Below, in pieces: positions 44,874-46,226 of a stretch of DNA of 64,000 nt; the stretch's first letter is position 1, and each line of letters begins with the position of its first letter. Below the pieces are notes generated by a model. The model was not told the origin of the DNA. It was given only the letters and a program-made list of their open reading frames with translations, and ran no database searches. The stretch comes from Hymenobacter persicinus (GTDB taxonomy: Bacteria; Bacteroidota; Bacteroidia; Cytophagales; Hymenobacteraceae): positions 62,001-126,000 of the forward strand of contig NZ_SEWE01000004.1 of the NCBI RefSeq assembly GCF_004167665.1. The letters are read 5' to 3'. Both the position numbers and the translations under genes were made by a program.

Positions 44874-44984
44874 AGGGCGAAAGGTGTCGAGCCTTTAAAC
44901 CGAAAGGGGACGTGACCCGGCAAAGATACGGCGGAGCCCCGTACGAAGCCCCATCCTCCGCATCCGACCCGGGGCTGCCCTCAG

Positions 44985-45392
44985 CTAGTGCTGCTCGGCC
45001 CGGGCCCCGGCCAGGATCGAAACCGGGCGCTTGTCGGCGTCGATGGCCACGAAGGTAAATAGGCCCGACACGGCCTTGGTGCGCTCCTCGGAGTACATCT
45101 GCTCCACGAATAAATCCACGCGCACCTGCAGGCTGGTGTTGCCCACGCGCACCACGTTGCCGATCAGCTCGACGAGCGTGCCGCCGGGACTGGGGTGGGT
45201 GAAGTCGACCTTGTCGGAGGAAACGGTGACCATCTTGAGGCGGCTGAAGCGGGTGGCGCAGATAAAGGCCACCTCGTCCATCATATGCAGCGTGGCGCCG
45301 CCGAAGAGCGTGTCGTAGTGGTTGGTGGTGTTGGGAAATACCGCCTTGAAGATGCGGGTTTCGGCGCGGGCAATTTTCTCGGCGAGGCTCAT
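44985..45392 (-). CDS. Acyl-CoA thioesterase (hotdog fold)
   Basis: 135 aa from ATG 45392 (MSLAEKIARAETRIFKAVFP). HYDTLFGGATLHMMDEVAF is the catalytic helix with G-G and D, followed by VTVSSDKVDFTHPSPGGTLV and GLFTFVAIDADKRP. Same family as the gene at 25809-26330 but shorter. It is the first intact gene downstream of the cobalamin riboswitch, about 190 bases away, though no biochemical reason links it to B12. Confidence 0.9.
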   Translation of the reverse strand: MSLAEKIARAETRIFKAVFPNTTNHYDTLFGGATLHMMDEVAFICATRFSRLKMVTVSSDKVDFTHPSPGGTLVELIGNVVRVGNTSLQVRVDLFVEQMYSEERTKAVSGLFTFVAIDADKRPVSILAGARAEQH

Positions 45393-45582
45393 GGCGCTAG
45401 GGTACAGGGGAGAAGGGCGGAAAAATTCCTTGGCCGGTTTCCGGGCCGCCCACTCGTCGCAGAGCACTCAATCGGGAAGGTGCCACCAGCCCGGGCCGGC
45501 CGCCGGGCAAGGGCGCGGCGGGGCCAGTAAGGGCATCAGCTCCCGATAAAGGCCTTGTGGCGCGAAGGCAACCTTATCACTA
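45393..45582 (-). other. Leader between riboswitch and thioesterase, no recognisable gene
   Basis: About 190 bases. On the minus strand, just after the riboswitch, GATAAGGTTGCCTT and AAGGCCTTTATC can pair, a possible expression-platform hairpin without a T run. A 22-codon open frame from ATG 45536 to 45468 (MPLLAPPRPCPAAGPGWWHL) has no known match. The rest shows no features I can name. Confidence 0.4.
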
Positions 45583-45770
45583 AGACGAAAGGCAGGTCTC
45601 CTGACTTGTAACATTTTCCCCGCCCTTCTCAGGCCGGCCGGGGCCGGCCCAATGGGCTGCTTGCGGGGGAAAACGGCGTGGTTACTTACAGTAGCGCGTC
45701 TGTCCGGGATTTGCACCCGGTTCCCTGTTAGGGGCGGTATTACCCGCCCACCTCTCGTCGTCTGATGGAA
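45580..45770 (-). promoter_or_regulatory. Cobalamin (AdoCbl-type) riboswitch
   Basis: Read on the minus strand, the region carries the conserved core in order: GGGAACCGGGTGCAAATCC, then CGCTACTGTAAGTAACCACG, a long GC-rich variable stem, and finally AAGTCAGGAGACCTGCCT. These are the B12-box and junction signatures of the cobalamin riboswitch. Closing helix P1 pairs TCGTCT (45758-45763) with AGACGA (45583-45588). The usual targets (btuB-like receptor, cob genes, B12-independent enzymes) are absent downstream. Confidence 0.93.
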
Positions 45771-45826
45771 ATCAAACCAAGAATAACGGCGGCGAAGGTA
45801 GCGGTTTTACCAGGGTGGGCCCAAAC

Positions 45827-45859
45827 AAAAAAAGCTCCTTCCCGCGGTGGGGAAGGAGC
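45827..45859 (-). terminator. Rho-independent terminator
   Basis: On the minus strand GCTCCTTCC and GGAAGGAGC form the stem, followed by seven T. It ends the small helical gene at 45882-46226 before the riboswitch. Confidence 0.9.
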
Positions 45860-45881
45860 CCGCTTGACTTAAGGCGCGGAT

Positions 45882-46226
45882 TTATTCGGCCACCTCCGGC
45901 CGGCGCACCTCGCGGCCGTCCGTGCCTTTGGCAGTGCTCGAGCCATTCTTGCGGGGCCAGAACTCCTCCATCGATTGGTTGAAGCAGTTGAGCACCTGCG
46001 CCCGCACTTCGCCCGAGGAGTGGCGGAGCAGCGTGCCCAGCATGGCCCGGTACATTTCGGTGGTAACCTCCAGCCCTTTGGCACTTACCAGGCCGTGGTG
46101 GAGCAGGTCGCAGTTGGTCGCCACGGAGTTGGTGATAGAGTCGGCCAGGTCTTCACGAGCCTGGTCGGCTTCTTTGAATGATTGTTCCAAACGGGCGTTG
46201 ATTGAAGAGGTGGACTTCTGATCCAT
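45882..46226 (-). CDS. Small helical hypothetical protein
   Basis: 114 aa, all-helical and charged: LEQSFKEADQAREDLADSIT, then HHGLVSAKGLEVTTEMYRAM and NCFNQSMEEFWPRK. The amphipathic pattern recalls phasin-like or small structural proteins, but no family can be named. The last 25 residues are polar and disordered. Monocistronic, with its own terminator. Confidence 0.65.
   Translation of the reverse strand: MDQKSTSSINARLEQSFKEADQAREDLADSITNSVATNCDLLHHGLVSAKGLEVTTEMYRAMLGTLLRHSSGEVRAQVLNCFNQSMEEFWPRKNGSSTAKGTDGREVRRPEVAE

Follow-up and report, generated by a model that had tools for sequence, protein, structure and literature searches.

A cobalamin riboswitch upstream of an acyl-CoA thioesterase gene in Hymenobacter persicinus: an apparent member of the Bacteroidota cobalamin regulon

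What does a cobalamin riboswitch control when no cobalamin gene lies behind it? The question is raised by 64,000 nucleotides of H. persicinus DNA (contig NZ_SEWE01000004.1, positions 62,001 to 126,000 of the forward strand), the whole of which is called the window here. The original prediction had read a cobalamin riboswitch on the minus strand, followed by a 22-codon open frame and an acyl-CoA thioesterase gene, and offered that the regulated gene had been deleted and the switch left stranded, or that the switch controls the thioesterase or a small leader peptide. The Infernal search against Rfam that it proposed bore out the riboswitch itself: the Cobalamin model (RF00174) matches positions 45574–45770 of the minus strand at 103.4 bits, far above the cut-off of 31.5 (E 8.6e-25), the alignment spans the full length of the model (1–189 of 189), and cmscan gave no other Rfam match above cut-off in the 64-kb window. 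The AAGTCAGGAGACCTGCCT end is also present. The following two genes encode the thioesterase and an FAD-dependent protein, the latter with a promoter-like box before it, and so the observation that no cobalamin gene stands behind the switch held as well.

The leader and the thioesterase

A TACCTTCG box (45793–45800, minus strand) lies 22 nt before the aptamer and appears to be a Bacteroidota-type promoter −7 element, the consensus of which we take to be TAnnTTTG. The pattern TAnnTT(T/C)G precedes the aptamer in 22 of 23 leaders (that of the window and those of 22 named Hymenobacter), whereas 0.04 of random 165-nt pieces drawn from the window contain it. Further upstream, a terminator-like hairpin with a T run (45832–45861, minus strand) stands 3′ of the preceding gene (45882–46226, minus strand), and transcription of the riboswitch therefore probably begins anew. 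A second terminator-like hairpin (44921–44953, minus strand) precedes the gene after the thioesterase together with a TATCTTTG box read by eye, which suggests that the thioesterase is transcribed alone; both hairpins belong to a set of four terminator-like sites in the region, where shuffles gave 2.1. The preceding gene encodes a protein of 114 residues without a Pfam or NCBIfam match, and a protein resembling it by eye is found at L090:7538–7855.

The L5 kissing-loop bases CGCG (45695–45698, minus strand) were placed by comparison with the UCCCG consensus in the available text of PMC10653944. They are complementary to the CGCG of L13 (45561–45564) in a predicted P13 hairpin, the putative expression platform (45545–45578, minus strand), whose energy of −16 kcal/mol in a 51-nt stretch is not exceptional (z −0.79). 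In all 23 aligned leaders the aptamer is followed by a hairpin whose CGCG loop is invariant. On a wider scale, L5 reads CGCG in 30 of 31 readable thioesterase leaders, and in 6 of 6 in a later reading in which 30 of 31 full riboswitches were readable. CGCG in L5 is accompanied by CGCG within 70 nt downstream in 29 of 31 thioesterase leaders with a readable L5, though since the downstream 4-mer was sought anywhere in those 70 nt, part of this count may be chance in GC-rich DNA. The L5 pattern was unreadable in 9 of 40 thioesterase, 11 of 23 metE and 16 of 20 btuB leaders. The fold suggested a pairing between the aptamer's GAGAAGGGCGG stretch and the pyrimidine tract that precedes the start codon, but this was dropped; each of the 23 leaders was equalled by at least 43 of 200 shuffles, and most leaders by most shuffles. 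The minimum free energy of the whole leader was uninformative (z −1.75).

As described in the available text of PMC10653944, corrinoid binding in the riboswitches studied allows L5 and L13 to form a kissing loop; P13 is thereby stabilised and expression usually goes down, either through concealment of the ribosome site or through termination, with one activating case known. Here 181 nt separate the aptamer match from the thioesterase ATG (45392). P13 stands about 150 nt away from that codon, a distance at which it does not evidently mask the ribosome site in any simple way, and a search for terminator-like sites gave none on the same strand between the aptamer and the thioesterase. The long spacer is no defect of the window copy, since a second cobalamin riboswitch of the same genome (C2:200951–201182), which precedes a TonB receptor and a DUF5074 protein (BtuB-/BtuG-like), has a similar one, 159 nt to the receptor compared with 182 nt by the same measure in the window. 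Going by the riboswitch class, a corrinoid would bind the aptamer, the CGCG:CGCG kissing loop would stabilise P13 and expression would fall, such that the thioesterase would be made when B12 is low. The same direction is suggested by the partner genes of this riboswitch in relatives, which encode B12-independent isozymes (metE, class I nrd) or are B12-uptake-like.

The thioesterase gene (44985–45392, minus strand), the candidate regulated gene, encodes 135 residues with a hot-dog 4HBT domain (PF03061, 58.3 bits against a cut-off of 20.6), and Pfam, fold and active-site residues place it with the acyl-CoA hydrolases. The closest solved relatives by sequence are 2gvh (E 2.8e-44) and 2eis (E 3.3e-29), and the best folds among the Foldseek matches listed are 5egk (Z 17.6), 7cz3 (16.9) and 2eis (16.6), with the model superposing on 5egk at 2.2 Å over 125 residues. 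The AlphaFold model has a mean pLDDT of 79.5, falling below 50 in residues 23–30, the active-site loop. N24, D39 and T56 are invariant in 26 orthologs and align with the N, D and T of the Staphylococcus aureus enzyme. Titles of PDB entries 5egj, 5egk and 5hz4 name mutants of Asn28, Asp43 and Thr60 in that enzyme, and these are probably the same residues with an offset of 4. Fold and active site thus fit a predicted acyl-CoA hydrolase activity. The more specific name YciA was rejected, with the NF007970 equivalog scoring 50.6 bits against a curated cut-off of 162.

Conservation of the pairing

Our Hymenobacter set held 37 genomes including that of H. persicinus, 26 of them with a thioesterase ortholog. 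In 23 of these 26 a riboswitch lies 146–204 nt upstream on the same strand; in one (G032) the riboswitch precedes metE and metE precedes the thioesterase, and in two (G020 and G024) no riboswitch was found near the gene. An order-wide search added 24 Hymenobacter orthologs, of which 22 of the 23 tested have a riboswitch directly upstream (G263 was left out, and none was found directly upstream at L184 of G284). This brings the genus to 45 of 49 orthologs with a riboswitch directly upstream, one more by way of metE and three without. With two riboswitches in 4.8 Mb, the probability that one lies by chance in the correct orientation in the 300 nt upstream of a given gene is about 6 in 100,000. 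At least two riboswitches are present in 25 of the 26 genomes with the ortholog, and exactly one in each of 10 without it (leaving out the 82%-complete G027, with no ortholog and two riboswitches). Where more than 40 genomes were searched for riboswitches the filters were stricter and weak matches are lost, and absence of a riboswitch may therefore be overcounted.

Outside the genus we used an evenly drawn sample of 390 genomes of the order, in which 101 orthologs at E ≤ 2e-41 were found in 100 non-Hymenobacter genomes (a further 14 genomes, whose matches were all weaker at 1e-40 to 1e-25, were left out). At 54 of these 101 loci a same-strand riboswitch lies no more than 8 kb upstream; none was found at the other 47, and none of the 101 has one in another orientation within 8.5 kb. 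The distance is below 600 nt at 7 of the 54 linked loci, 0.6–2 kb at 2, 2–3.5 kb at 40 and larger at 5, and the intervening genes were examined in a minority of them.

A second set, 80 named loci that are the best 80 of at least 581 relatives, has a same-strand upstream riboswitch at 60. Eleven of these loci were confirmed by cmscan (nine with weak profile matches, holding 10 riboswitches, plus L116 and L117), and the remaining 49 linked loci rest on profile matches with E 6e-15 or better. The Rfam scan gave no cobalamin riboswitch above cut-off at the other 20, some of which have contig ends inside the operon (for instance L145, with metE pieces upstream, and L152, with nrdA upstream). Among these best 80, the riboswitch is directly before the thioesterase at 22 of 24 Hymenobacter and 11 other loci, and a CWC gene, small and Cys-rich, comes between the two at 5 of those 11. 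Also among the best 80, metE stands between riboswitch and thioesterase at 20 loci (confirmed in L143), accompanied at 8 of the 20 by a FabH-type synthase, and four loci have a class I nrd partner. Two riboswitches are present in L107 and L154, one ahead of class I nrdB-nrdA and the other ahead of the thioesterase; in L141 and L144 the order is riboswitch, nrd genes, thioesterase (nrdB was not called in L144). A secreted protein is found between the two in L111.

Two records bear names from other phyla. L117 (CP034120.1, named Glaciecola amylolytica, a gammaproteobacterium in the taxonomy) was not counted as spread beyond Bacteroidota, since 5 of the 6 long neighbouring frames have their best matches, at 51–89% identity, in Fluviicola-like Flavobacteriales loci and the record is probably mislabelled. 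L101 (CAJCJB010000256.1, named Candidatus Saccharibacteria) holds a thioesterase 69% identical to that of the window and is possibly a mis-binned contig.

Three neighbours of the thioesterase recur. The CWC protein (PF14375) precedes it in 8 riboswitch loci of the best 80 of at least 581 (L107, L117, L132, L138, L142, L146, L149 and L154), is fused to it in G044 (L065:2568–3146), G049 (L066:2857–3435) and L105, and is also present at G039 (L064:3896–4258); the domain was verified by Pfam in G039, G044, G049 and L117 and by motif elsewhere. Such a fusion is a Rosetta-stone hint that the two proteins work together. In Pedobacter (the loci are L109, L113, L124, L125, L131, L133, L139 and L143) the riboswitch operon has the FabH-type ketoacyl-ACP synthase III gene after metE and ahead of the thioesterase, and the synthase could consume propionyl- or branched acyl-CoA. 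A PAS-domain protein stands beside the thioesterase in the riboswitch operons L112 (6507–6998), L149 (6507–7004) and L107 (6306–6776), verified by Pfam in L112 and L149. Two of the three have an FLQG stretch that resembles the LOV motif but has not the usual Cys.

The thioesterase gene is therefore co-directional with and downstream of the riboswitch in an arrangement conserved beyond close relatives, and this pairing in and outside the genus makes it look like a member of the cobalamin regulon in Bacteroidota. Genome comparison thus favours the option of the original prediction in which the thioesterase is a new regulon member, and the riboswitch at 45574–45770 is very probably the leader of the gene at 44985–45392 and regulates it. 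The available text of PMC2211319, PMC8620254 and PMC8123684 gives as genes under cobalamin riboswitches those for B12 synthesis and uptake, cobalt transport, metE, nrdD, one desaturase and hypotheticals. No statement of a link between a cobalamin riboswitch and a thioesterase was found in the available text of open-licence PMC papers. Both the riboswitch class and the enzyme family are known; their pairing as a conserved regulon member is apparently new, with an earlier mention possible.

A possible role at low B12

The H. persicinus genome encodes a methylmalonyl-CoA mutase and a fused IcmF-type mutase, typed from size and domain match. PrpD was found in none of the 59 genomes searched, H. 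persicinus included, which leaves the cell without a PrpD-type methylcitrate route. A mutase match is present in all 38 linked non-Hymenobacter named genomes (from the best 80 of at least 581) and in 52 of 54 linked versus 36 of 46 unlinked genomes of the order sample (Fisher p 0.011), where absence means that a genome is missing from the list of matches and, since relatedness is uncorrected, the association counts as support and not as proof. The background is high, with mutase matches in 316 of the 390 order-sample genomes and in 54 of 59 in a smaller set, and mutases also occur in Hymenobacter genomes that have no thioesterase. A mutase as a strict requirement was rejected, as it fails in 2 of the 54 linked genomes: no mutase was found in the riboswitch-linked G310 and G395. 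In G075 there is one weaker match only.

From these observations a role can be proposed. At low B12 the B12-dependent acyl-CoA mutases would stop, and with no PrpD found, CoA would be tied up in accumulating propionyl-, methylmalonyl- and branched acyl-CoAs. The thioesterase would then free the CoA and the acids would leave the cell, so that the thioesterase would be to the mutases what MetE is to MetH. Relief of acyl-CoA build-up is the likeliest reading of the role, which we put at slightly less than an even chance, and G310 and G395 speak against it as the whole story. Taken overall, a thioesterase in a riboswitch-led regulon together with acyl-CoA relief is the explanation we favour, with moderate confidence. 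More tentatively, Bacteroidota may possess a riboswitch-triggered safety valve in which B12 starvation stalls the mutases, a dedicated thioesterase hydrolyses methylmalonyl-, propionyl- and branched acyl-CoA and the acids are excreted. Within this proposal the system might jointly be a built-in bacterial counterpart of methylmalonic aciduria, an analogy that we draw with the same reserve, and, just as tentatively, a third B12-independent backup, in addition to MetE, which stands in for MetH, and class I NrdAB, which stands in for class II reductase. If so, the conserved thioesterase would add acyl-CoA balance to the adjustments of a cell short of B12, a gene annotated only as a thioesterase would gain a testable function, and B12-starved Bacteroidota would be predicted to excrete propionate or methylmalonate.

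Alternative explanations and known systems

The layout itself probably goes back to loss of an intervening metE. The H. persicinus genome has MetH and MetE was not found in it, and metE is present in 2 of the 37 Hymenobacter genomes (G025 and G032). Hymenobacter sp. BT559 (L088, whose contig is also G020:C6) retains a C-terminal MetE remnant at L088:6501–6884 directly before the thioesterase, namely the last 127 codons, 93.7% identical to the G032 MetE; no riboswitch was found there. The spacer of the window gave no match to a MetE remnant. The loops point the same way: 11 of the 12 metE leaders read have TCGCG in L5 and one has TCGTG (with CACG downstream), with ACGCG in L017, TCGCG in G032 and, as an exception, TCCCG in L003 among further ones. 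Leaders with a TonB receptor first (n = 16) have CCCCG in 10 cases (that of H. persicinus included), TCCCG in one and other bases in 5, with CGG within 70 nt downstream in all 16. Since metE and thioesterase leaders have the CGCG loop class in common, the window's switch may well have belonged to metE once, the gene behind metE having since become the first. G025 has separate riboswitch-metE and riboswitch-thioesterase units, so the history is not simple.

This history could also be the whole explanation, the thioesterase being a passenger of an ancestral riboswitch-metE-thioesterase operon that lost metE in most Hymenobacter, with a function tied not to the mutases but to methionine, folate or the upkeep of acyl-CoA in general. 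The intact operon order in G032 and in 20 of the 80 named loci (best 80 of at least 581), the BT559 remnant without a riboswitch found, the loop class in common with most metE leaders read and the two linked genomes without mutases all fit. Passenger status accounts for the layout, but not for retention of the riboswitch-thioesterase pair in 45 of 49 genomes when metE is absent from 57 of 59 relatives (counting Hymenobacter alone, from 35 of 37), and it leaves the nrd and btu contexts unexplained. We consider it unlikely, if a serious alternative.

That the thioesterase acts in corrinoid uptake or remodelling is improbable. It shares operons with BtuB-, BtuF- and BtuG-like proteins: receptor-containing thioesterase operons occur in G038, G039, G058 and L156, and between riboswitch and thioesterase L110 has a DUF6580 protein and a BtuF-like protein and L156 a TonB receptor, a DUF5074 protein and a BtuF-like protein. 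The family, however, hydrolyses CoA esters, and at most linked loci among the best 80 of at least 581 the intervening gene is metE or nrd, or there is no large one.

The two other options of the original prediction fared worse. The 22-codon frame is present (45468–45536, minus strand; ATG 45536–45534, stop ending at 45468) and preceded by GGGAG, and interplay of a B12 riboswitch with an upstream frame is reported for Mycobacterium tuberculosis in the available text of PMC11260477, but the frame is not conserved, with an ATG at the aligned place in 0 of 22 other Hymenobacter leaders (alignment read by eye); it is probably not a gene, and its control as a leader peptide is very improbable. Equally far-fetched is a stranded relic without a present target: the window has no classical cobalamin gene downstream, metE is missing from the genus as described and half-deleted in BT559, and to this extent the idea of a deleted gene probably stands, but aptamer, promoter box, kissing loop, strand and spacing are kept with the thioesterase throughout Hymenobacter and the pairing turns up again far from the genus, which argues that the switch still has its target.

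Returning to the favoured reading, a riboswitch-led regulon thioesterase, the arrangement can be set beside known systems. The metE cobalamin riboswitch (RF00174) has the same aptamer and L5-L13 kissing loop and, in most metE leaders read, the same CGCG:CGCG loop class, and metE itself precedes the thioesterase in relatives, whereas in the window the first gene is the thioesterase and the genome has no metE that we could find. The riboswitch at C2:200951 is of the same family with a similar spacer, but its L5 reads CCCCG against ACGCG in the window and transport-type genes lie downstream. A lipid-metabolism gene under a B12 riboswitch has a precedent in the fatty-acid desaturase ole1, which lies under a B12 element in metagenomes and is suggested to be a member of an isozyme pair in the available text of PMC2211319; the enzyme is a different one, and that text names no thioesterase. 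On the protein side, the hot-dog acyl-CoA hydrolases (S. aureus 5egk/5egl, Bacillus cereus 1y7u/7cz3, Thermus thermophilus 2eis, mammalian ACOT7 and ACOT12) resemble the window's thioesterase in fold, in sequence and in the invariant N24, D39 and T56, and what sets the window's enzyme apart from them is its place under a cobalamin riboswitch.
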